Origin: an uncultured Rubritalea sp.
GTDB lineage: Bacteria; Verrucomicrobiota; Verrucomicrobiia; Verrucomicrobiales; Akkermansiaceae
Assembly: GCA_937981665.1 (NCBI GenBank)
Contig: CALJOJ010000019.1
Span: forward strand, 1 to 54,906
Direction of reading: 5' to 3'
DNA: 54,906 nt
Under the pieces are notes generated by a model. That model was not told where the DNA came from. It was given only the letters and a program-made list of their open reading frames with translations, and ran no database searches. The position numbers were made by a program, and so were the translations under genes. Below, in pieces: positions 6,483 to 41,201 of the stretch (its first letter is position 1; each line of letters begins with the position of its first letter).

Positions 6483-7292
6483 CTATCCGCCGGCTACTGG
6501 TGGGATGAAGACTACTTCGTCACCATCTTGGAGGATGTGATCCCAGCCTGAGAACTCTTCATTGATGGCGATCATAAGTTGCTTTTGCTTGTGGGGGAAT
6601 TGATAACGTTGTTTCATTTCTTCAAAGAGGCCGGCAGGTGTACAAGATTCTGTCTGGATGCTTTCTTCGTCTTTTTGAGTTATTTCTTTGAGCTGAGCGA
6701 AGTACTTGAGTTGGATCGTTTTCATGGTTCTAGTCTGCTTGAGTATGGATAGGACTTCAATTTTTTCGGCAGGTGAATTTGCATTCATTAACGCTTGTGG
6801 GTTAGTGAGGAGCAGTTTTTTTGTAGAGTTGTCTTCTAACAGGTGTCGTGGGCAGTACTTGTTGTTTGAAATTGCGTCTTTGATAACAGGGAAGATAGCG
6901 GGTTCATATATTGCGCAGAGTGGTTCAGGTCGATGATCAATATTACTCAGGTAGCAAGTCGCTAAAGCTGAAGTATCACGCTCTGAGATAAGGAGTTCTA
7001 GATCAGCGGATGCTAGAAGAGGGGTATCGCAAGCGAGTACCAGGAGGCCAGTGTTAGGAAATCTATCAGCAGCTGCAGCGATGGCCGCAAGAGGTCCATC
7101 AGCGGGATCAGTGATACCGGGCTGCTCAAAGCTTTGGTCTGCACGGTGGCAGAGGTAGGTTTCGTCGGTGAGATTCTCTAGAATGTCGAACAGTCGTTCG
7201 CGTTCAGTTTGCTCAGCATGGTAAACGAGCTCGGATTTATCCTCGCCCATACGGCTGGATTTACCTCCAATGAGTAAAATACCTATCAGCAT
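6483..7292 (-). CDS. mobA: MobA-MoaD fusion: molybdenum cofactor guanylyltransferase plus molybdopterin synthase small subunit
   Basis: Two molybdenum-cofactor proteins in one reading frame. Residues about 1-185 form a MobA nucleotidyltransferase with LIGGKSSRMGEDKS near the start, DPADGPLAAIAAA and the metal-binding LVLACDTPLL; MobA attaches GMP to molybdopterin. The last 80 residues, starting at an internal methionine (bases 6725-6723), are a complete ubiquitin-like MoaD that ends in the required Gly-Gly (PPVAGG), the thiocarboxylate-bearing tail of molybdopterin synthase. No stop codon separates the two. The open frame reaches 7331, but the ATG at 7292 puts the start right before LIGILLIGG and leaves a 13-base gap after moaC instead of an overlap. 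MoaE and MoeB are not in the window. Confidence 0.88.
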   Translation of the reverse strand: MLIGILLIGGKSSRMGEDKSELVYHAEQTERERLFDILENLTDETYLCHRADQSFEQPGITDPADGPLAAIAAAADRFPNTGLLVLACDTPLLASADLELLISERDTSALATCYLSNIDHRPEPLCAIYEPAIFPVIKDAISNNKYCPRHLLEDNSTKKLLLTNPQALMNANSPAEKIEVLSILKQTRTMKTIQLKYFAQLKEITQKDEESIQTESCTPAGLFEEMKQRYQFPHKQKQLMIAINEEFSGWDHILQDGDEVVFIPPVAGG

Positions 7293-7305
7293 ATTGTGAG
7301 TGTTT

Positions 7306-7779
7306 CTATTGGTTAAAATCTGACTTTCCACCAGTCTTTGAGATTAGTTTTATCTCAGAGATGATGATGGCTTTGTTTACCGCTTTACACATATCGTAGA
7401 TAGTGAGAGCTGCGACATTGGCTCCTGTTAGAGCTTCCATTTCCACTCCTGTGCGTGCATTCGTGAGGCAAGTACATCGTACTCTAACAGCCGTGTTGGA
7501 AATAGGCTCGATCTTAAACTTACATTTCTCTAGCGGTAGAGGGTGGCAGAAGGGAATCAGGTCAGATGTTTTCTTGGCTCCCATTGTTCCTGCTATGATA
7601 GCAGTCTGGAACACCGGTCCTTTCTTAGCAGAGATGTCATTAGAATCTAGCTTCTGCATCAATTCTATCCCGAGCTCCACAATGCACTCTGCCACGGCCT
7701 CACGTTGGGTCATGTTCTTGTTAGATACGTCAACCATTCCAGGTTGATTCTCCCCATCAATATGTGTGAAATTTGACAT
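7306..7779 (-). CDS. moaC: Cyclic pyranopterin monophosphate synthase
   Basis: Converts the MoaA product to cyclic pyranopterin monophosphate in molybdenum cofactor synthesis. The 157 residues cover the whole family: HIDGENQPGMVDVSNK near the start, KKGPVFQTAIIAGTMGAKKTSDLIPFCHPLP with the conserved Lys/His positions, and TGVEMEALTGANVAALTIYDMCKA with the active-site region. It is the first gene of a leftward two-gene unit with mobA-moaD, which fits the shared pathway. No Shine-Dalgarno motif is visible upstream. Confidence 0.95.
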   Translation of the reverse strand: MSNFTHIDGENQPGMVDVSNKNMTQREAVAECIVELGIELMQKLDSNDISAKKGPVFQTAIIAGTMGAKKTSDLIPFCHPLPLEKCKFKIEPISNTAVRVRCTCLTNARTGVEMEALTGANVAALTIYDMCKAVNKAIIISEIKLISKTGGKSDFNQ

Positions 7780-8098
7780 ATCTATTGTGTATAGTAAGAG
7801 AGGAAAATATCCAGAAATTAACCTGTTTTTCCGGAGGTTTATTTCACCTGATAAGAAAGAGATTTTGTTTCACTTTGGATCTAAGATCTTAGTGATGATT
7901 TAGAAGCTACTAGTGATTGGTAAAGTTGACTGAGAATTTACTTTAATTAGGCACATTCAAGCCTTGCCAAAACAGTGATTTAGTGTATAAAATGGCACCT
8001 ACTTGATCGTAATTGACCTTTCAAGGTAATCCTAAATATTTCGCATTTAATCGCGAGATTTTGATCCTACTAGATATTTAAATAATAATCATTTTCTG
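7780..8098. other. Divergent intergenic region between moaC and the SNF2 gene
   Basis: A 319-base gap between divergent genes. It must hold both promoters. One good candidate for the rightward gene is listed separately. No ORF, tRNA or recognised riboswitch was found in it. Confidence 0.6.
7964..7991 (+). promoter_or_regulatory. Candidate sigma-70 promoter for the SNF2 gene
   Basis: TTGCCA at 7964-7969 and TATAAA at 7986-7991 are separated by 16 bases, close to the sigma-70 consensus. Transcription would start near 7998, giving a leader of about 100 bases before the ATG at 8099. Confidence 0.5.
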
Positions 8099-30065: not shown

Positions 30066-31229
30066 TTATTTGTTAGCGTGAAGTTCAGTTGCTTGAGTAA
30101 GCCAATCATCTCTGTCGATACGCCCTTTAAATGAAAGTAGACCGTCGAATTCGGAAACGACTTCAGGTGACCATTGAGAGATTTGTTTGAAGGTATAAAC
30201 CCCAAAGCCATTGAGCTTACCAACGATTACTGGACCTACTCCTTTGATCTCGGTTAGATCGTCAGCATCATCAGGACGCTCGGTGTAAATGAGACCTAGC
30301 TTTTCATCAGTCGTTGCATGTTCTGGAAGATCAGTATCATCGGCAGATGTGGTTGACTTTGCAGAGACAGTTTTAGATTTCTTATCAGATTCGAGGGTCA
30401 ATTCTGACTGCTTTGCTTTCTTACCTTTGCTAGATTCAGCGACAGATTCAGGTTTTACAACTTCTTCTTCAGTAGTTGGAGATTCTTCAGTAGGCTCTTC
30501 GATCTCTTCTACAGAGTCAGCGGCATTACCTACTTCAGTATTCTCGGAGTGCTCTGTGTCTGGGCCATTCAGAGTAGCCACTTTAGGAATGTCCTTTGAC
30601 TTAGCGATAGTCTTTGCCATGCGTCCGTCATCATCAGCGTCTGCTGGCGCTTCATCTCCGTGCAGCTTCTTAGAAAGTGTTACACAACCAATGGTAGCAA
30701 CGAGAAGAAGTACTCCAACTACCTGTAATGGGAAGTTGTATACGGTAAAAGTTTTCTGACCGATGAGGTTCACATCAGGGATTTCACCCTCTCTGAGCTT
30801 GGGGCGAATAAGGCTGTCTTTAGGTACTTCAGATTCTGGCAGGCTAGCCTCAGCAGCCGTAAGTGCTTTTTTATCTAGTATTTCGAAATCCTTATCAACA
30901 CTGATAAATACAGGACAGATGATCATGACAAGAAGTAGGGGAATAATCACTCCAGCTGCTACATTTATTACATGAAATTCCTTCTTAGACTCTTTTTTTA
31001 AGTCTAACAACATGATGATGAAAATAAACAACACCATGATAGCTCCGGCATACACGAGGATCATTAGAGTCCCGATAAAGTAGGCATTAAGACCGATGAA
31101 AAGTGCAGCAAGCGCGATGAAAGATCCGATCATGCCCATTGCTGAGGAGACTGGATTTTTCAGAGCTACTACACAGATACCGCCTGTTATCATCAGGATA
31201 GCGAAAATGTAAAATAGAATGGATGGCAT
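30066..31229 (-). CDS. nuoJ: NADH-quinone oxidoreductase subunit J with C-terminal helix-hairpin-helix-like extension
   Basis: A 387-residue protein, about twice the usual NuoJ length. Residues 1-190 are a normal five-helix NuoJ (AMGMIGSFIALAALFIGLNAYFIGTLMILVYAGAIMVLFIFIIML). A charged, Glu/Ser/Lys-rich linker of about 130 residues follows. The last roughly 65 residues (DDADDLTEIKGVGPVIVGKLNGFGVYTFKQISQWS ... FKGRIDRDDWLTQATELH) form the small helical domain that is usually fused to NuoE or ribosomal protein L21 in other bacteria, with its GxGP helix-hairpin-helix signature. The extension is in frame and unbroken. Confidence 0.93.
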   Translation of the reverse strand: MPSILFYIFAILMITGGICVVALKNPVSSAMGMIGSFIALAALFIGLNAYFIGTLMILVYAGAIMVLFIFIIMLLDLKKESKKEFHVINVAAGVIIPLLLVMIICPVFISVDKDFEILDKKALTAAEASLPESEVPKDSLIRPKLREGEIPDVNLIGQKTFTVYNFPLQVVGVLLLVATIGCVTLSKKLHGDEAPADADDDGRMAKTIAKSKDIPKVATLNGPDTEHSENTEVGNAADSVEEIEEPTEESPTTEEEVVKPESVAESSKGKKAKQSELTLESDKKSKTVSAKSTTSADDTDLPEHATTDEKLGLIYTERPDDADDLTEIKGVGPVIVGKLNGFGVYTFKQISQWSPEVVSEFDGLLSFKGRIDRDDWLTQATELHANK

Positions 31230-31880: not shown

Positions 31881-33131
31881 TTAGTTAGCGGAGTCTGCTG
31901 CTTTTTCAGAATCTGAAGCGAGCATACGTTCGAGAGATTTAGCGATGTAGAACATCAGTGCGGAGAAGATAATAACACCTGTGAGTGCTGCCCAGAATGG
32001 AAACCCTACAAGGTGATCATTCACTCTAGCCATTATTACAGCAGTGAAAAGAATGTTGATGAGAGCTGCTTCGAAGAAGACGACCCAGCCAAGCTTCATG
32101 AGCTGGTCATATCTGAAACGTGGAACTGTCCAGCGGATAAGAATGAAGAAGAGGATGAAGGCAATCAGCTTCACAAGGAAAGCACCGAGGTGGATCAATC
32201 CAGCCCAGTTTCCACAGGTTTCAAAAACCCAAGCGTCAAGCCCGAACCCTACAGACCAGCCTCCGAGGAAAAGTGTCACGATGAGGGCAGACCCCACGAT
32301 CATAGCGGCGTATTCACCGAGGAAGAAGAGGGCGAATTTCATGGAAGAGTATTCCGTGTGATATCCACCTACGAGTTCAGTCTCACATTCAGGAAGGTCA
32401 AACGGCATGCGGTTTGTCTCTGCAAAAATAGAAATGGTGAAGATGAAGAAGGAGATGATCATTGGTATCCAGAGAAGCATACGTTCTAGTGAAAGACCTT
32501 CGCCCCATAGTGGTAAGATAAGCCAGCCGTTCTTCGCTTGCTCTTCTACGATGTTCATCAGGTTAAGATCACCGAAGTGCATCAGCACAGGGATGACAGA
32601 AAGGCCGAGTGCTATCTCGTATGAGATCATCTGAGCACAAGAACGGACACCTCCGAAGAATGAGTATTTATTGTTAGAAGCCCATCCCGCTAAGGTGATT
32701 CCGTAAACTGATAGTGAAGCAACAGCAAAGATAAGTAGAGGGCCGACCGATACATCAGCGATCACGAGAGCCTCACGAAAAAGGTAAGAACCAAAGGGGA
32801 TCACCGAGAGTGTCACCAAGGCTGGCACCATAGTGAGAACTGGTGCTAACCAGAAGAAGAACTTGTTCACGTGAGACGGGACGAAGTCTTCCTTAAGGAT
32901 AAATTTTAATCCATCAGCAAGTGGCTGGAGTAGACCGAAGAAACTGATATCCTTCTTAAATCCGAAGAGAGTGAGCGGGATTCCTGTTCTGTTAGGGCCG
33001 ACACGGTCTTGGATTACCGCAGCGAATCTACGCTCAGCATAAACTGAATACGCAATGAGCGGCAGAGTGATGACAAAGGTAATGCCAATGATTTTGGCTA
33101 GCATTACGATGATGAGGATGATGGCTTCCAT
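31881..33131 (-). CDS. nuoH: NADH-quinone oxidoreductase subunit H
   Basis: A 416-residue membrane subunit that forms the quinone-binding chamber. Characteristic sequences are ERRFAAVIQDRVGPNRTG, QPLADGLKFILKEDFVP, GVRSCAQMISYEIALGLS, ETNRMPFDLPECETELVGGYHTEYSSMKFALFFLGEY and RWTVPRFRYDQLMKLGW. All are intact. It lies 31 bases after nuoG. Confidence 0.96.
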   Translation of the reverse strand: MEAIILIIVMLAKIIGITFVITLPLIAYSVYAERRFAAVIQDRVGPNRTGIPLTLFGFKKDISFFGLLQPLADGLKFILKEDFVPSHVNKFFFWLAPVLTMVPALVTLSVIPFGSYLFREALVIADVSVGPLLIFAVASLSVYGITLAGWASNNKYSFFGGVRSCAQMISYEIALGLSVIPVLMHFGDLNLMNIVEEQAKNGWLILPLWGEGLSLERMLLWIPMIISFFIFTISIFAETNRMPFDLPECETELVGGYHTEYSSMKFALFFLGEYAAMIVGSALIVTLFLGGWSVGFGLDAWVFETCGNWAGLIHLGAFLVKLIAFILFFILIRWTVPRFRYDQLMKLGWVVFFEAALINILFTAVIMARVNDHLVGFPFWAALTGVIIFSALMFYIAKSLERMLASDSEKAADSAN

Positions 33132-33162: not shown

Positions 33163-34908
33163 TTATCCTACGATGATGCCTGCGCTGGCTCGTTCGCGTT
33201 CCTTGGTGAGTAGTGGTATTTCCACTCCAGTCTCGATGAGCTTGATGCCTTGTTCGCCAATCTTAGAGAACGTCATACCTTCAAAGGCAGGAATGTTTTC
33301 CGCGATGACTTTCACAACTTCCTCGATCATGTAGAGGTCGTTAGGTTCACCAGTGAGGGCTAAAATGAGGTCACGGATGATCTCCCAGTCTTCTCTTGCA
33401 TTACCTGCTGGCTGAAGTGCCTGATTGAGCCTCTGGAGTCTACCGAGAACATTTACCATGCTACCACGTTTCTCAGCGAAGCTTGCACCAGGCAAGACGA
33501 TGTCACTTACTTTTGCCGTAGCATTAGCGATGATGTGTGAGGAAACTACTAGCTCAGCATTCGCAAGATCATCATGCGAGAAGCCAGCGGCTTCGAAGAT
33601 ATCTTCGCTAAGCACGATGAGAGCTTTGACGCTGCCATCATTGAGTCCAGCCTTGATAGAATCTAGTTTCTTAGTAGTCTCACCAAGAATAAGCTTTGCT
33701 CCATTGGTGTTAGGGTTTCTATCAGCAGAGATTAGCTTGCCATCAGCTTCGCCGATACGTTCTACGGTAGCAATATTCTCAGCCCCTAATGTCGAGGCGA
33801 GAGTATGTGTTAGGAATAGCTCTTCATTGGTCTGACGCGCGGAAGCAATGATTGCGATCTCGCTAGGTTCAAATTGTTTCAGAGCATCTGCTACCGCAGT
33901 ATTTGCGGTATGCCAGTCAGTGATCTCGTGCTTGTCGTCGACTTTGATCATTGGATCAGTTAGGCGGTTGTCACCCTGCACTTCGTGGAAGGCGAGACGG
34001 TGTGAGTCTGGCATCCACTCAGAGTTTACCTCGTCATTTCTGCGTGGAGTCACACGGTAGATCTGACTGCCACGAGTCCAGATCAAGGTATTGCAGCCAG
34101 TGCCACAGTTCACGTCGATTGATTTGGTTTCCTTGAGGAACCAGACACGCATCTGGAACCGGAAATCTTTAGATGTAAGAGCACCTACTGGGCAGAGATC
34201 GATGGTGTTCATTCCGTAGTTAGAGTCTAACTTGCGGTCTGGGTGACACGTCACAGTGGTGTGAGTACCACGTTCAGAGAATCCTAGCACAGCGTCTTCT
34301 GCTACTTCATCCATAAAGCGGATACAGCGTGAGCACATGATACATCGTTCGTCGTCGAGATTGACTCTTGGTCCGATGTCGACGTTCTTTGGCTTCTTGA
34401 CCTTGTCTTCTACGAAACGTGATTGTCCACGTCCGTGCTCGACGGAAAATTCTTGGAGTGAGCACTCCCCAGCTTGGTCACAGATAGGACAGTCGAGTGG
34501 GTGGTTGATGAGGAGAAACTCCATCACACCTTCGCGGGTCTTTTCTACGAGGTCACCAGTAGTTCTTATCCCCATGTTCTCAGCAACCGTATTCGCACAA
34601 GCGATCACAGGTCTAGGCATCCAGCCAATTTCTTGAAATCCATCATCACCAAACACTGGATCAGCACCAGGCGCAGGGCGTGGTGGCATTCCCATCTGCA
34701 CAAGACACATGCGGCAGTTACCCGGTGAGGTAAGCTTTGGGTGATAGCAGTAATGGGGCACTTCCTTTTCAGCTATCTTACAGGCCTCGATCATACGAGT
34801 CCCTTTAGGAACTTGGATCCAGTTGCCATCGATATGCACGTTAACGAGCCCCTTTGCAGCGGCCTCGTCTTTTGGAAGTAGTTTGGTGGTAGTTTCTTGG
34901 TCTGACAT
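33163..34908 (-). CDS. nuoG: NADH-quinone oxidoreductase subunit G
   Basis: A 581-residue iron-sulfur subunit of the peripheral arm. The N-terminal [2Fe-2S] ligands are Cys54, Cys65, Cys68 and Cys104. The His-Cys cluster is at HPLDCPICDQAGEC (His136, Cys140, Cys143, Cys149), and a [4Fe-4S] motif at CIMCSRC begins at Cys189, with a later Cys in TIDLCPVGALT. The molybdopterin-oxidoreductase-like C-terminal part is short relative to longer NuoG forms. It is upstream of nuoH. Upstream of its own start lies the four-helix-bundle cassette rather than nuoF directly. Confidence 0.95.
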   Translation of the reverse strand: MSDQETTTKLLPKDEAAAKGLVNVHIDGNWIQVPKGTRMIEACKIAEKEVPHYCYHPKLTSPGNCRMCLVQMGMPPRPAPGADPVFGDDGFQEIGWMPRPVIACANTVAENMGIRTTGDLVEKTREGVMEFLLINHPLDCPICDQAGECSLQEFSVEHGRGQSRFVEDKVKKPKNVDIGPRVNLDDERCIMCSRCIRFMDEVAEDAVLGFSERGTHTTVTCHPDRKLDSNYGMNTIDLCPVGALTSKDFRFQMRVWFLKETKSIDVNCGTGCNTLIWTRGSQIYRVTPRRNDEVNSEWMPDSHRLAFHEVQGDNRLTDPMIKVDDKHEITDWHTANTAVADALKQFEPSEIAIIASARQTNEELFLTHTLASTLGAENIATVERIGEADGKLISADRNPNTNGAKLILGETTKKLDSIKAGLNDGSVKALIVLSEDIFEAAGFSHDDLANAELVVSSHIIANATAKVSDIVLPGASFAEKRGSMVNVLGRLQRLNQALQPAGNAREDWEIIRDLILALTGEPNDLYMIEEVVKVIAENIPAFEGMTFSKIGEQGIKLIETGVEIPLLTKERERASAGIIVG

Positions 34909-34927
34909 GTCTTAAGTTGTTCGGTAG

Positions 34928-34941
34928 TGTAGCAGGTAGCG
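34928..34941. repeat. Left arm of a 14-bp perfect inverted repeat flanking the four-helix-bundle gene
   Basis: tgtagcaggtagcg is the exact reverse complement of bases 35439-35452. The adjoining sequence to 34971 contains further gtagc-type units (ggtagcgggtagca) overlapping the 3' end of the gene. Confidence 0.85.
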
Positions 34942-34971
34942 TTCGCCTGCGGCGGTAGCGGGTAGCACTCG

Positions 34972-35325
34972 CTATGCTCGTATTGAGTTTATTAACCGTG
35001 CTAGGCTTGGTTTGATCGTTTGGGCTATACTTAATGCGTGAGCAGGATCTCCGTATTTAAGTTCACCAGATAGGAATAATTGATAATCAGCTTCTGCTAG
35101 TGATGCTTCTGCAATGTTATAAAATTTGATTTTGTCTAGGTTTCCCCATCTTGAAAAGCCTTCGGCTATATTTGATGGTATACTAACAGCGGATCTTTTT
35201 AACTGAGAAGTTAATCCGAACCTTTCATCGTCTGGGAAAAACTTAGCAATACGATAAACTTCCATAACGAATTCGTGTAAAAGTTGCCAGACTTTAAGGT
35301 CTTTGTATGTTCTTGCTTTATCCAT
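34972..35325 (-). CDS. Four-helix-bundle protein (23S rRNA intervening-sequence type)
   Basis: A 117-residue protein of the four-helix-bundle/S23 family: YKDLKVWQLLHEFVMEVYRIAKFFPDDERFGLTSQLKRSAVSIPSNIAEGFSR is the family signature. Such proteins are encoded in intervening sequences of 23S rRNA genes in Leptospira and Coxiella and also as stand-alone genes; the fold is shared with the avd protein of diversity-generating retroelements. Their function is not established. Here the gene interrupts the nuoF-nuoG spacing of the operon and is bounded by inverted GCTAC-type repeats. Its stop codon lies within the left repeat zone. No reverse transcriptase is nearby. Confidence 0.9.
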   Translation of the reverse strand: MDKARTYKDLKVWQLLHEFVMEVYRIAKFFPDDERFGLTSQLKRSAVSIPSNIAEGFSRWGNLDKIKFYNIAEASLAEADYQLFLSGELKYGDPAHALSIAQTIKPSLARLINSIRA

Positions 35326-35438
35326 ATTGTGGTTTTCCTTAGTTCGATAGCGTCGAGTAGCAAAATGATTCTAGTATTTTGGTTGAGTTGCTCTTAAGTC
35401 TTTAGTTAGTTTAAATGGTGTTCTCGGTTAATTTTTTT

Positions 35439-35465
35439 CGCTACCTGCTACAAGCTACTTGCTAC
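35439..35465. repeat. Right arm of the inverted repeat and GCTACNN heptamer array
   Basis: cgctacctgctaca at 35439-35452 is the perfect inverted partner of 34928-34941. It continues as a heptamer array: gctacct, gctacaa, gctactt, gctac. The array lies 20 bases from the nuoF stop. Confidence 0.85.
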
Positions 35466-35484
35466 GGATTGAGTGGCTCTCTTT

Positions 35485-36879
35485 CTATTTACCTAAGAAC
35501 ATCTCACGCTGAAGTTGCTCCTTTGAAAGACGTTCGTTTTTCTCATCTGTATCAGCGGTTAGTTCATCGCGGAATTTCGAGATGATCGCTTCTACTGGCC
35601 ATGATGATGCTTCACCGAAGGCACAGACTGTCTTACCATCGATCTGGTAGGCAACTTCTTCGAGAGTAGTGATGTCCTCTGGAGTAGCCTTACCTTCTAC
35701 GATGCGGTCGGAAATTTTCTTCATCCATGTAGAACCTTCTCGGCATGGGGTGCACTGACCACATGACTCGTGAGCGTAGAAGTGGTTGATGTTGTTCAGC
35801 ACCCAAGACATCTTACGTGAGTCATCGAGTACGATCACTCCACCGGAACCTGCCATAGAACCACAGGCAGCGAGTGTGTCGAAGTCTAACTGGATATCCC
35901 AGAAGTCTAGATCCTTAGCGTCTTCACCACGGCCTATCTTGAAAGTCTCATCACAGCGGAGGATCTTTGAGGATGACCCACCAGGAATGACGGCTTTAAA
36001 TTCTTTGCCTTCCTTTGGTCCACCGCAGACATCATAGAGAAGCTCACGCATGGTCATTTTACCGACTTGGATTTCAAAGTAACCTGGATTCTTGACGTCA
36101 CCGGAGACACATAGGATACGTGTGCCGGTATTTCTATCTACTCCAAGCTTGGCGTACTCTTCACCGCCCATCTCAAGGATGTGCTTCACGTGGCAGAGTG
36201 ACTCCACATTATTCACGATGGTCGGTGCCATGTAGATCCCAAGAGCAGCAGGGAAGTAAGGCGGCTTAATACGTGGATATGGACGTTTACCTTCGAGTGA
36301 TTCTATCAATCCAGTTTCCTCACCACAGATGTATGCTGCAGCTCCACGGTGAACCCAGATTTCTAAGTCGAAGTCTGAGCCTAAAATATTCTTACCAACA
36401 AAGCCCTTGGCGCGAGCATCCTCGATCGCTTTCTCCATAATGATGGCAGCTTCCGGGAATTCCTCACGCATGTAGATAAAGGCAGTGTGTGCGCCTACAG
36501 CGAAGGCGGAAATGACCATACCTTCGATAAGCTGGTGTGGGTCCTGATGGACGATGTATCTGTCCTTAAATGTTCCTGGCTCAGACTCATCACAGTTACA
36601 GATGAGGTAAACCGGCTTGGTATTCCCCGGTGGGATAAATCCCCACTTCACACCAGTGGGGAAGCCTGCACCACCGCGACCACGAAGACCAGATTTCTTC
36701 ACTTCACCAGTGATGTCAGCTGGCTCCATATTGATTGCTTTTTTTAACTGATCATAGCCACCATCACGCATGTAGCAGTCGATCGATGGATCCCATCCTT
36801 CACGATCTATATTTTTAAAAATGAGGCGGTGCTCACGCTCGTGTGGTTCTTTACCGGGAAGATACTTGATGTCGCTCAT
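35485..36879 (-). CDS. nuoF: NADH-quinone oxidoreductase subunit F
   Basis: A 464-residue NADH- and FMN-binding subunit. GLRGRGGAGFPTGVKWGF (about 66-84) is the NADH-binding region, with YLICNCDESEPGTFKDR and the FMN-binding GAAAYICGEETGLIESLEG. The N3 cluster motif ESCGQCTPCREGSTW is near residue 355, with a fourth cysteine near VCAFGEAS. Complete and of normal length. nuoE lies 20 bases upstream. Confidence 0.96.
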   Translation of the reverse strand: MSDIKYLPGKEPHEREHRLIFKNIDREGWDPSIDCYMRDGGYDQLKKAINMEPADITGEVKKSGLRGRGGAGFPTGVKWGFIPPGNTKPVYLICNCDESEPGTFKDRYIVHQDPHQLIEGMVISAFAVGAHTAFIYMREEFPEAAIIMEKAIEDARAKGFVGKNILGSDFDLEIWVHRGAAAYICGEETGLIESLEGKRPYPRIKPPYFPAALGIYMAPTIVNNVESLCHVKHILEMGGEEYAKLGVDRNTGTRILCVSGDVKNPGYFEIQVGKMTMRELLYDVCGGPKEGKEFKAVIPGGSSSKILRCDETFKIGRGEDAKDLDFWDIQLDFDTLAACGSMAGSGGVIVLDDSRKMSWVLNNINHFYAHESCGQCTPCREGSTWMKKISDRIVEGKATPEDITTLEEVAYQIDGKTVCAFGEASSWPVEAIISKFRDELTADTDEKNERLSKEQLQREMFLGK

Positions 36880-37499: not shown

Positions 37500-38237
37500 C
37501 TATTCTGCAGCTATTAGTTTCTTAAGGTCAGGGAATATGGACTCCGCGACGTCAGACTTGACGATTTTTCCTTCGAGGTCAGTAACGACAAGGGCGGGGA
37601 ATCTAGAAACACCTTGCGGATTGCTCTGCATGAATTGCTTTACTTTACTATGCATGAGCTGAGGCCAAGGCATTTTATTAGATACTGCGTAGCTAGTCAT
37701 TGCATTTTCACTATTATCAAGAGAAATGAGGATGACCTCAAAGTTGTCGGTCTTTTCTTTATTATAGAATTTCACAAGTGTAGGAGTGAATTCCTTGCAC
37801 TTTGGGCACGTGGAAGCAGCGTAATAGAAAACGTAGAAATTAACAGGTGTCTGAAAGTCACTGGCAGCGACAAGTTTTTTGTCATCCAGTTCTACTAGGT
37901 CTTCACTAAATAACGGGGAGAATTTATCTTTAGAAGCACTGGAATCAGAGCTAACCATAGCTGGTTTCCCTTCAATAATCTCTTTTGACACCCAAGCCTT
38001 GAGTTTAGCCACAGATTCAGCTGATAGCGTCTCTTCTCTTACTGCAGCTTTCTTATTTTTTGAGGTATAAAAAATACCGACCAACTTAGATTCAACGGTT
38101 TTCACCTCGATAAGGTCAAGAAGAATAGTCTTACCTTCCTTGTTGGTCCAATTTTCTAGCTTAGCAGAGCTCACATTCCCAAACATGGTTAGAGAAAGAA
38201 TTGTTAGAGTAATGATAAGTGAGATATTAAGTTTCAT
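37500..38237 (-). CDS. Exported thioredoxin-like protein with N-terminal SHD1-like segment
   Basis: A 245-residue protein encoded between nuoD and nuoE. A signal peptide occupies residues 1-25. Residues about 27-90 (LENWTNKEGKTILLDLIEVK ... LSAESVAKLKAWV) resemble the SLA1-homology-1-like beta domain common in planctomycete and verrucomicrobial secreted proteins. The C-terminal part is a TlpA/nucleoredoxin-like thioredoxin fold with a CPKC active site in AASTCPKCKEFTPTLVKFYN and the cis-proline region VSRFPALVVTD. It may act as a periplasmic thiol oxidoreductase. Its place inside the complex I operon is unusual, and whether it serves complex I assembly is unknown. Confidence 0.85.
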   Translation of the reverse strand: MKLNISLIITLTILSLTMFGNVSSAKLENWTNKEGKTILLDLIEVKTVESKLVGIFYTSKNKKAAVREETLSAESVAKLKAWVSKEIIEGKPAMVSSDSSASKDKFSPLFSEDLVELDDKKLVAASDFQTPVNFYVFYYAASTCPKCKEFTPTLVKFYNKEKTDNFEVILISLDNSENAMTSYAVSNKMPWPQLMHSKVKQFMQSNPQGVSRFPALVVTDLEGKIVKSDVAESIFPDLKKLIAAE

Positions 38238-39639: not shown

Positions 39640-39755
39640 TTATTGCATTAAATTCTCAATAGGCATAAGTGCCTACATGTGATAAATATTTCCGCTGATC
39701 CAGTTAAATGAGATGTTGCCGAGTGGCCAAATTTATGTATTCTCGACTAAGTAAT

Positions 39756-41201
39756 ATGAGTAATAAACCTTCAGATAATCAATCCTTAGACCTGAGTAGT
39801 CTGGATTTTGGACCAGTATGGGCACGTAAAGGTGCGCCGGGTGACAAACCTGCGAAAAAATATAAAGAATACAAAGGCGAAAGACCGCAGCGCAATGATC
39901 GCAATGATCGCGGAGCTAGGTCGGCTGGTGGACATAAGCCTCGTCAAGGCGGAGCAAAGCGTGATTTCCGCTCAGCGCCAAAGCCACGTCGTGTATTCAC
40001 GCCAGCTACAGAAGGTGTCACTTCTAGCATCATGCCTATCGAAGAAGGTGTGGATAATCTTGTGAAAGAAATTTCCGCATCAGGAAGAACATACTCAGTA
40101 TTTGATCTCGCACGCGTTATTTTGAGCGCGAGAGACCGGTTCCAGATCGTCTTCAAAAGCGAAAAGAAGGAACTCGAATTATTTCAATCCAAGTTAGATG
40201 GAGCAGTATTCCTCACGAAAGAAGAATGCATCGCCCACGCTGGTAGTAAAGATAGCCCCCAGTGGCTTAGCGAAATTTATGTCACTGAAGAAGTGGAGTC
40301 TGAAGCTCCTTCAGGTAGTTATCAAAACGTTGCCAAATGTGGACTCAGCAGCGAGCTACTAGGACCTACTAACTTCCACGGTTATCAGGACAAGGTGTTA
40401 GAAATGCACCGCACTCGTTTCAGTCACCTTAGCCTCGATGAGTATAAAAAGCGCATCGTGAGCGAGAGCGGTGAGGAAGTAGTAGCTCAATGGAAGGAGA
40501 CCATGACCAAGCGCACTATCTTTAAGCTTAAGAGCGATGAGACAGTGACATTTGATAACCAGACCGCAATGCTCCAGCACTTCGCTACAGAGTCATTTGA
40601 TCAAGTATTCCATAAGACTCAGAAAGCACAGGTTTCATCTGAGATCGAAGCTAAGAAGCTTTCTCCAGGTTTACTTTCATCACTTAAAGAGGCGATCCAA
40701 GACCAGCGCCGCTACCCAGGTGATCTCTCATCATTCTTATGTCGTCAGCTTTCTGGACGTCAGCTCGCTGTCTTCAAGTGGCAGGGCAAGCTACACTGTG
40801 GTCCATCAAGACCACACCAGATCCCTGAAGATCAAGTCATTGCAGACAGACCTAAGGCCATTCACGACTGGATCGGTAAGAACATAGGCGGTGGGGTTGA
40901 CACTCTCTGGAAAGAAGTTTGTCCAGAGAACATCGAAGAGAAAGAGAAGCAGCAGTGGTTTCATGATCTCCACTGGCTCATCAATGAAGGCTATGTAATC
41001 TTCATGAACAACGGCCTTCTTTTCCCATCATCAGCATCTAAAAAGCCTGCTACTAAACAAGCTAAGAAAGACGCATCTAAAGCTGTGGTGAAGTCTCCGG
41101 CTAAAGAAGCTGCAAGTAAAAAAGAAGAAGTGAAAGCGGTGGCTAAAGAAAAACCTAAGAAAGAAGCTGCACCTGACTCTAAGGATTCTCAAGAATCTTA
41201 A
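39756..41201 (+). CDS. Conserved hypothetical protein with basic, lysine-rich ends
   Basis: A 481-residue protein. The N-terminal 90 residues are disordered and rich in Lys/Arg/Gly/Asp (for example ERPQRNDRNDRGARSAGGHK). The centre (about 95-420) is predicted to be folded, with HRTRFSHLSLDEYKKRIVSESGEE, LKEAIQDQRRYPGDLSSFLCRQLSGRQLAVFK and a C-terminal helix pair ending QWFHDLHWLINEGYVIFMNNG. The last 55 residues are Lys/Ala/Glu low complexity, like histone H1. Composition suggests nucleic acid binding. Verrucomicrobial proteins of this type have no assigned function. The frame extends to 39708, but ATG 39756 fits better because the preceding 16 residues have atypical composition. Confidence 0.75.
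   Translation: MSNKPSDNQSLDLSSLDFGPVWARKGAPGDKPAKKYKEYKGERPQRNDRNDRGARSAGGHKPRQGGAKRDFRSAPKPRRVFTPATEGVTSSIMPIEEGVDNLVKEISASGRTYSVFDLARVILSARDRFQIVFKSEKKELELFQSKLDGAVFLTKEECIAHAGSKDSPQWLSEIYVTEEVESEAPSGSYQNVAKCGLSSELLGPTNFHGYQDKVLEMHRTRFSHLSLDEYKKRIVSESGEEVVAQWKETMTKRTIFKLKSDETVTFDNQTAMLQHFATESFDQVFHKTQKAQVSSEIEAKKLSPGLLSSLKEAIQDQRRYPGDLSSFLCRQLSGRQLAVFKWQGKLHCGPSRPHQIPEDQVIADRPKAIHDWIGKNIGGGVDTLWKEVCPENIEEKEKQQWFHDLHWLINEGYVIFMNNGLLFPSSASKKPATKQAKKDASKAVVKSPAKEAASKKEEVKAVAKEKPKKEAAPDSKDSQES

Follow-up and report, generated by a model that had tools for sequence, protein, structure and literature searches.

The window analysed here, 54,906 nucleotides of contig CALJOJ010000019.1 from an uncultured Rubritalea sp. 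(assembly GCA_937981665.1), raises the question of what a gene of a family named after 23S rRNA intervening sequences is doing between nuoF and nuoG, two genes of a minus-strand nuo (complex I) operon. The nuoF-nuoG spacer measures 576 nt and contains a single open reading frame (ORF), whose product scores 110.2 bits against PF05635 (23S rRNA-intervening sequence protein; cut-off 33.8) and 98.7 against TIGR02436 (four helix bundle protein; cut-off 24), and is therefore a member of both families; we refer to it as the four-helix-bundle (FHB) protein. Its gene is flanked by arrays of GCTACNN heptamers that are inverted to each other. From sequence comparison we interpret this unit, with a probability of roughly 0.7, as one copy of a minimal mobile cassette, in which a PF05635 gene is placed between inverted arrays and which lands at stop-start junctions. 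Such a cassette is about 400-650 bp long and combines one FHB gene with arrays in which a short unit of 7 nt, sometimes 8 nt, is tandemly repeated. The cassette that a first-pass annotation of the window had picked out is real, and it is one of a large, apparently overlooked set.

The array-bounded unit between nuoF and nuoG

The perfect 14-bp inverted repeats that had been reported at this gene were recovered (Table 1). The FHB gene does lie between them, but the claim that they bound the cassette exactly has to be amended, as the true borders are the heptamer arrays that contain the 14-mers. When the cassette is excised in silico (34929-35465), about 39 nt of the nuoF-nuoG spacer are left, in agreement with the gap of some 40 bases that the first-pass annotation had estimated. 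The pattern GCTACNNGCTAC occurs five times in the window, always at the cassette, as against a mean of 0.07 and a largest count of 1 in 100 shuffles. Across the source genome (2.71 Mb in 107 contigs, 93% complete) it occurs 12 times, including the 5 occurrences at the window cassette, and the reversed control pattern 8 times. No Rfam family was matched at E<=1 between positions 33000 and 37500, and hence the catalytic core of a group I or group II intron was not found there; likewise, the PADLOC models of anti-phage defence gave no match to the window cassette at E<=1.

The same junction was compared across 58 genomes, comprising the source genome and its relatives. A nuoF gene was found in 53 of these, 30 nuoF loci were read, and nuoG was within reach in 17. 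Six of the 17 show a short spacer devoid of an FHB gene. They include the congeners G009 (nuoF 94% identical) and G005, in each of which the spacer is exactly 37 nt long and free of GCTAC arrays, that is, the kind of empty orthologous site that had been proposed as a check on mobility; the others are G022 (25 nt), G040 (57 nt), G024 (81 nt) and G030, where the two genes overlap. An FHB gene is present in three spacers, namely those of the window itself (G000), G011 (619 nt) and G007 (458 nt). The other eight hold different material of 193-610 nt with no match to the window FHB, the congeners G004, G006, G008 and G010 being among them. G043 also belongs to these eight, and its nuoF-nuoG spacer contains a gene of PF13366 (PDDEXK_3), a family which we take to be GxxExxY; in G002 an FHB gene lies past the end of nuoF, on another contig. 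The presence of the FHB gene at this junction is patchy, and its conservation in all relatives, which had been named as contrary evidence, is absent.

Table 1. Positions of the cassette, its parts and its operon neighbours in the window
Feature	Position	Strand	Remark
FHB gene (PF05635 / TIGR02436)	34972..35325	-	117 aa; sole gene of cassette
5'-side heptamer array (in gene direction), four GCTAC units	35440..35465	+	
3'-side heptamer array, two pairs of GCTAC units split by a short gap	34929..34966	-	
Perfect 14-bp inverted repeat, arm one	34928..34941	.	
Perfect 14-bp inverted repeat, arm two	35439..35452	.	
Leftover host spacer, nuoG side, 20 nt	34909..34928	.	set against empty spacers of congeners
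Leftover host spacer, nuoF side, 19 nt	35466..35484	.	set against empty spacers of congeners
nuoF, upstream operon neighbour	35485..36879	-	
nuoG, downstream operon neighbour	33163..34908	-	

Matched arrays across genomes and lineages

The source genome has three PF05635 matches, each of them an FHB gene between arrays of its own. On contig C14 the gene is flanked by AATTAGG repeats and their complement, and AATTCCNAATTCCNAATTCC with up to one mismatch has 16 matches in the genome, all at this gene. The gene on contig C80, at what we read as an nrdA-nrdB site, is placed between GATCAGT-like arrays. Thus, the heptamer differs from element to element and each is carried in both arms, whereas the arrangement is constant. 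Two heptamer patterns were searched throughout the source genome, and the opposite picture of arrays spread everywhere without the gene was not encountered: the AATTAGG type is confined to its FHB gene, and 5 of the 12 occurrences of the GCTAC type are at the window cassette. The expectation that relatives would also carry FHB genes between inverted short-repeat arrays was borne out, and extends to other phyla (see below), but GCTACNN itself is not general, as the heptamers differ.

PF05635 was matched in 43 of the 58 genomes. From these, 93 FHB genes were read, being the top matches along with others on the same stretches and thus a part of all matches; one has a short flank, leaving 92 usable loci. 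Complementarity between the upstream and downstream arms reaches the threshold of 14 (>=14) in 57 of the 92, compared to 1.1% of mismatched upstream/downstream pairs (Mann-Whitney p 3e-35). Control ORFs of the same stretches, taken with their own flanks, reach the threshold in 5 of 243 cases: three belong to GxxExxY, a fourth coincides with a Y1 transposase match, and the fifth is a large gene of a different kind. Among the FHB flanks, 30% on the upstream side and 25% on the downstream side show a 7-nt period (at least 20 of 28 positions), as against 2% on either side for the controls; period 8 appears in 7% and 3% of the FHB flanks and the harmonic 14 in 14% and 11%, with other periods at 0-2%. 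Either complementarity or period 7/8 is present at 67 of 92 FHB loci versus 16 of 243 controls. A search in the reverse direction, over 710,626 bp around FHB genes, retrieved 36 strong inverted pairs with arms more than 200 nt apart, and 30 of them enclose an FHB gene. A separate observation concerns L135 (about 7220-7956) and L131 (about 26-859), where ORFs with Y1 transposase features lie between inverted repeats of 54-55 nt.

The position of the cassettes within host gene clusters is also characteristic. The upstream neighbour points in the same direction as the FHB gene in 86 of 90 cases and the downstream neighbour in 80 of 93. In cassettes with recognised arms, the distance from the upstream stop codon to the outer end of the left arm has a median of 3.5 nt (interquartile range (IQR) -2 to 10, n=60), and that from the end of the right arm to the next start a median of 8 nt (IQR 2 to 36.5, n=56). 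The cassettes have a median length of 482 nt (range 403-653), and their left arm is strand-biased, with a positive GC skew in 58 of 63. The host sites, as read from ORF clusters and sequence ends, include the nuo genes, nrdA-nrdB, metK-ahcY, sucC-sucD, dnaK-groEL and parE-gyrA.

To other lineages the comparison was extended by a scan of one genome per species, queried with a single peptide pattern ([VIL]S[IV]PSNIAE) and thus biased towards FHBs of this type. It gave at least 588 relatives, and the best 80 were fetched; L207, apparently the same locus as L068, was excluded, and 4 of the 79 left have short flanks, resulting in 75 usable loci. In this sample (best 80 of at least 588), 41 of 75 loci exceed the complementarity threshold, compared to 1.8% of mismatched pairs (p 1e-29). 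Of the upstream and downstream flanks, 39% and 31%, respectively, show period 7, and 20% and 11% period 8. Judging by the record titles, the loci over the threshold come from Planctomycetota, Acidobacteria, Bacteroidetes, Clostridia, Selenomonadales, Gemmatimonadetes, Proteobacteria, Omnitrophica and Gracilibacteria, among others.

A second gene family shows a comparable arrangement. GxxExxY (PF13366) was matched in 41 of the 58 genomes, and 30 loci were fetched, of which one with an in-frame stop (L182) was excluded. Complementary arms are present in 20 of the remaining 29, versus 3.4% of 174 mismatched pairs (p 2e-11). Few flanks pass the period threshold (9 nt in 2 of 29 flanks on each side; 10 nt in 2 of 29 upstream flanks), suggesting that the repeat is less regular. 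Of these loci (L177-L206), several are in nuo operons, e.g. L190 and L189. GxxExxY genes thus appear to share the cassette architecture and to form similar cassettes, the repeat measuring about 9 nt in those flanks that show a period.

Occupied and empty sites on plasmids, and the history of the FHB family

A tblastn search for FHB relatives found them in 33 of 72,556 plasmid records, mostly cyanobacterial, and in none of 50,697 phage records; in the plasmid records the genes carry labels such as 'S23 ribosomal' or 'four helix bundle' proteins. Fifteen of the 33 plasmid matches were listed and seven opened, the flanks of five were searched, and 14 further records were fetched. Five plasmid sites could be read in both the occupied and the empty state. 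Site 1, between cas10 and cmr3, is occupied in the plasmid of Picosynechococcus PCC 7003 and empty, with 12 nt, in PCC 7002; in the former (L291) the FHB at 1995-2351 is inside a type III-B CRISPR operon. Site 2 is occupied in Trichormus variabilis plasmid C and in Scytonema, with the insertion directly behind the stop codon, is empty with 13 nt in Nostoc linckia and Aulosira plasmid 3, and holds a remnant in Nostoc C052 plasmid E. At site 3 Aulosira plasmid 2 is occupied and three plasmids are without the cassette. Site 4, a Nostoc gene pair, is occupied in three plasmids and empty in the other four that were read, where the genes are 3 nt apart. The next junction of the same cluster (site 5) is occupied in one plasmid by a different FHB with a different heptamer, and is empty in the other six plasmids read, with 0-3 nt between the genes. 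No constant target duplication was found over the five sites: site 2 has a repeated GTAA, site 4 an imperfectly repeated TTCT, and the other three nothing clear. On a plasmid of Nostoc N6 (L307, 978-1579) a cassette is apparently interrupted by a further array-bounded stretch lacking an FHB gene.

Aligned over 416-419 bp, the cassettes at the unrelated sites 2, 3 and 4 show 78-82% identity, with homology that both starts and stops at the arrays. Two Nostoc plasmids occupied at site 4 share 99.0% identity over the cassette as against 92.5% and 90.4% over its flanks, and in the third plasmid the cassette is 98.3% identical versus 90-94% for the flanks; either the cassette moved after its surroundings had diverged, or local recombination spread it. 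As far as these alignments go, they demonstrate that arrays and gene form a discrete unit, which is present or absent at otherwise intact sites and occurs as the same cassette at unrelated ones. The suggestion of the first-pass annotation that a mobile unit had been inserted without damage is supported by the empty orthologous sites of the congeners together with those in near-identical DNA of cyanobacterial plasmids, and a mobile unit is, by such comparison, well supported.

A tree of the FHB family was computed from 88 proteins, after exclusion of 5 of the 93 with in-frame stops. The FHBs at metK-ahcY need three changes forced by well-supported branches, as do those at nuoIJ, and both sites appear in the tree to have been reached by unrelated FHB lineages; three forced changes may equal one gain and two losses. 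The metK-ahcY FHBs of G040 and G043 adjoin the nrdAB clade, and that of G040 has a 30-nt array identical to those of the nrdAB FHBs of G023 and G017 (another family). Across different sites, arm resemblance is 0.37 for FHB pairs with at least 60% protein identity (25 pairs), compared to 0.16-0.18 for those below 45%. Within the nrdAB clade many repeat units have passed from TGTTCAG to TGATCAG, and have done so in both arms, a concerted pattern recognised by eye. Locus L267 was excluded from analysis A4. The ratio of nonsynonymous to synonymous substitution rates (dN/dS) is 0.043 for the window FHB gene versus that of G011 and 0.07-0.15 for other pairs with usable dS, values of dS near or above 1 being rough; three gene pairs are saturated at synonymous sites, and two near-identical pairs give 0 and 0.86, on very few changes. 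Judged by these ratios, the FHB gene is under strong purifying selection in the datable pairs. Solved structures of FHB relatives are 2gsc (Xanthomonas XCC0516) and 2rld.

Several observations weigh against interpreting these units as mobile cassettes. Between the ends of the window cassette, the ORFs and profile matches reveal the PF05635 gene only and no transposase gene, which leaves it without an enzyme. In the set of 92 FHB loci, 35 are below the complementarity threshold and 25 show neither signal, and among the 75 loci of the other lineages 34 are below it, including the single Anaerolineae and the single Roizmanbacteria locus. The upstream neighbour points in the opposite direction at 4 of 90 loci and the downstream one at 13 of 93. 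On the plasmids, two of the five sites are not clean, as the end of cas10 differs between the two states of site 1, while the cassette at site 3 truncates the end of the upstream ORF and provides a stop codon; and the Trichormus-type pair at site 2 lacks a difference between cassette and flanks (98.6% versus 98.9% and 98.0%). Flank identity on the plasmids is patchy, so that the 99% seen at site 4 may be due in part to gene conversion or recombination. In the tree the FHBs at nrdAB (11 rows) form one clade, and so do those at nuoFG (3 rows), a pattern expected under vertical descent; and when all pairs from different sites are pooled, array similarity follows protein similarity weakly (rho 0.12, a value reached in 7 of 500 permutations). 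Finally, the cassette of Nostoc edaphicum plasmid pNe_5 (L294, 1989-2357) lies between nrdB and nrdA and is antisense to both; a search with its flanks found no empty site. The nrdA-nrdB pair that hosts this cassette is also a recurrent site in the order to which the window belongs.

Other genes of the window include a thioredoxin-like gene (Thioredoxin_8; 37500-38237, minus strand), located between nuoE and nuoD as read, and a nuoJ-like protein (30066-31229, minus strand) with Oxidored_q3 at 17-185 and a C-terminal extension of about 200 aa that has no Pfam match. A 497-aa ORF on the plus strand (39708-41201) also has no Pfam match.

Known systems, rival explanations and a possible mode of movement

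Intervening sequences (IVSs) of rRNA have been known for more than 25 years. According to PMC4990558, they carry S23p genes and terminal stems and are cleaved by RNase III, and the IVS of Coxiella has tandem heptamers before its S23p gene, with transposition suggested as the origin; in the Discussion of that paper the function and origin of rRNA IVSs are called unclear. The cassette resembles the Coxiella 23S rRNA IVS, as described there, in its PF05635 gene, its size (428 nt in Coxiella), its terminal inverted repeats and its tandem heptamers, and the window cassette likewise consists of an S23p gene between terminal inverted repeats capable of forming a stem, the arrangement by which an IVS is recognised. 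It differs in lying between the protein genes nuoF and nuoG instead of in rRNA and in having arrays on both sides. Furthermore, FHB cassettes are found in many operons and phyla, and excision by RNase III is a property described for the IVSs. PF05635 genes are also reported in rRNA insertions of the candidate phyla radiation (PMC11270868), and the Xanthomonas FHB protein is reported to be a pentamer of four-helix bundles (PMC4990558). As for the repeats, heptameric arrays have been described in Xanthomonas, with frequent inverted pairs, and in Nostoc (PMC4692102), as TAACTGA repeats in Beggiatoaceae (PMC4679880; TAACTGA repeats also in PMC4853749), and as paired heptanucleotide elements in Geobacter (PMC2700814). 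Like the arrays of the cassettes, these are 7-nt, tandem and intergenic, and those of Xanthomonas often form inverted pairs while those of Geobacter are paired; unlike them, in the portions of PMC4692102, PMC4679880 and PMC2700814 that deal with the repeats they are not tied to FHB genes and are explained as quadruplexes or regulator sites.

Given these likenesses, the arrays might pair in the mRNA and form a stem cut by RNase III, with selection keeping the arms as RNA structure and the inverted arms in the DNA as a mere consequence. The heptamers and RNase III-cut terminal stems of rRNA IVSs of the same gene family (PMC4990558), the mostly co-directional placement of cassettes and host genes, and the folding of the window cassette, which is better than that of all 100 shuffles (z -2.94), are consistent with this, although good folding is expected of any inverted repeat. 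If an RNA stem were selected, G.U pairs should exceed A.C mismatches between the arms. A milder mismatch cost, which brings 65 FHB cassettes over 14 in place of the 57 of 92 in the complementarity count, gave 70 G.U against 94 A.C (p 0.07, in the opposite direction), and 23 GxxExxY cassettes gave 34 against 33, that is, no G.U excess. Therefore, DNA-level recognition of the ends is ranked ahead of RNA-level excision, which the first-pass annotation had raised as a possibility to check and which gains no support from the G.U count, and RNA-stem selection was dropped as the principal interpretation; taking into account also the antisense cassette on the Nostoc plasmid, we consider it doubtful. 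A resident host gene, inherited vertically and lost in some lineages, with arrays serving as local regulators or binding sites, would account for the single nrdAB and nuoFG clades and the low dN/dS. It is very improbable in view of the three forced changes at metK-ahcY and again at nuoIJ, the same cassette adjoining unrelated genes on plasmids, and the patchy presence within the genus.

Other alternatives concern the machinery. Y1 elements insert without a constant target duplication, and IS200/IS605 and RAYT/REP elements are short. The cassette is likewise short and without a constant duplication at the plasmid sites, and Y1 genes are common in the same genomes (42 of the 43 that bear an FHB gene), which raises the idea that the cassette is non-autonomous and is mobilised in trans by a Y1 (HUH) transposase of either kind, with the FHB as accessory or passenger. 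The FHB and Y1 counts are correlated after accounting for genome size (partial r 0.52, p 3e-5; kinship and mobile-element load uncorrected). In contrast to those elements the cassette has no transposase inside and is bounded by inverted tandem arrays, and one FHB-bearing genome, G037, gave no Y1 match, so that this explanation is unlikely; the Y1 genes of the source genome are on contigs other than that of the window. Alternatively, the FHB might recruit a reverse transcriptase (RT) in trans, as PF05635 is reported to resemble Avd, the accessory protein of diversity-generating retroelements (PMC10053308; structures 2GSC and 4DWL). Templated synthesis would then rebuild the arrays at the ends in a somewhat telomere-like manner, which would account for the way in which repeat units of the two arms have changed together in the nrdAB clade, as noted by eye. 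The cassette shares the Avd-like protein with such retroelements, as far as these are covered in that source, but has arrays in place of RT, template and variable repeat. The partial r of FHB with RVT_1 counts is 0.34 (that with PF13366 is 0.26, below both Y1 and RVT_1), yet RVT_1 is without a match in 17 of the 43 FHB-bearing genomes, including G040 (one contig), G017 and G055, making a retroelement quite improbable. In the source genome the RVT_1 matches are on contigs C3 and C86 and not on C19, the contig of the window, and hence there is no RT beside the Avd-like gene. Obligate partnership per genome was rejected for both RVT_1 and Y1, missing as they are from 17 and 1 of the 43 FHB genomes, and the two were kept as rivals.

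If the unit is a mobile cassette, as we favour, the FHB protein would recognise its own arrays and draw the two ends together, and a nuclease, a transposase or a host pathway might, in trans, transfer or copy the cassette to stop-start junctions, leaving no target duplication of constant length. The gene would be transcribed from the promoter of its host, and operon spacers might tolerate the cassette because little is broken by it and the gene is transcribed in this manner. The 23S rRNA IVSs with an S23p gene may then belong to this kind of element or to a sister kind, at a place where RNA cleavage is tolerated. We lean, at slightly better than even odds for all parts jointly, towards a wider proposal built on the same comparisons: each PF05635 gene would be the only gene in a mobile element of a class not described so far, spread across many phyla at the stop-start junctions of operons, each protein reading a private array; part of the unexplained bacterial excess of heptamer repeats would be cassette ends and their fossils; the rRNA IVSs would be the best-known outpost of the class, and GxxExxY would have the same architecture.

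We found no paper linking FHB genes outside rRNA to inverted heptamer arrays in the open-access literature, most subscription papers and bioRxiv being outside the scope of the search. The connection of the IVS protein to array-bounded cassettes with empty sites and repeated landing at stop-start junctions makes the function and origin of IVSs testable, and it suggests where some of the heptameric repeats described from various bacterial groups may come from. If the proposal is true, an element whose sole gene codes for a small protein, of a family without known enzyme activity, would still be mobile, and this would widen the view of what mobility requires.
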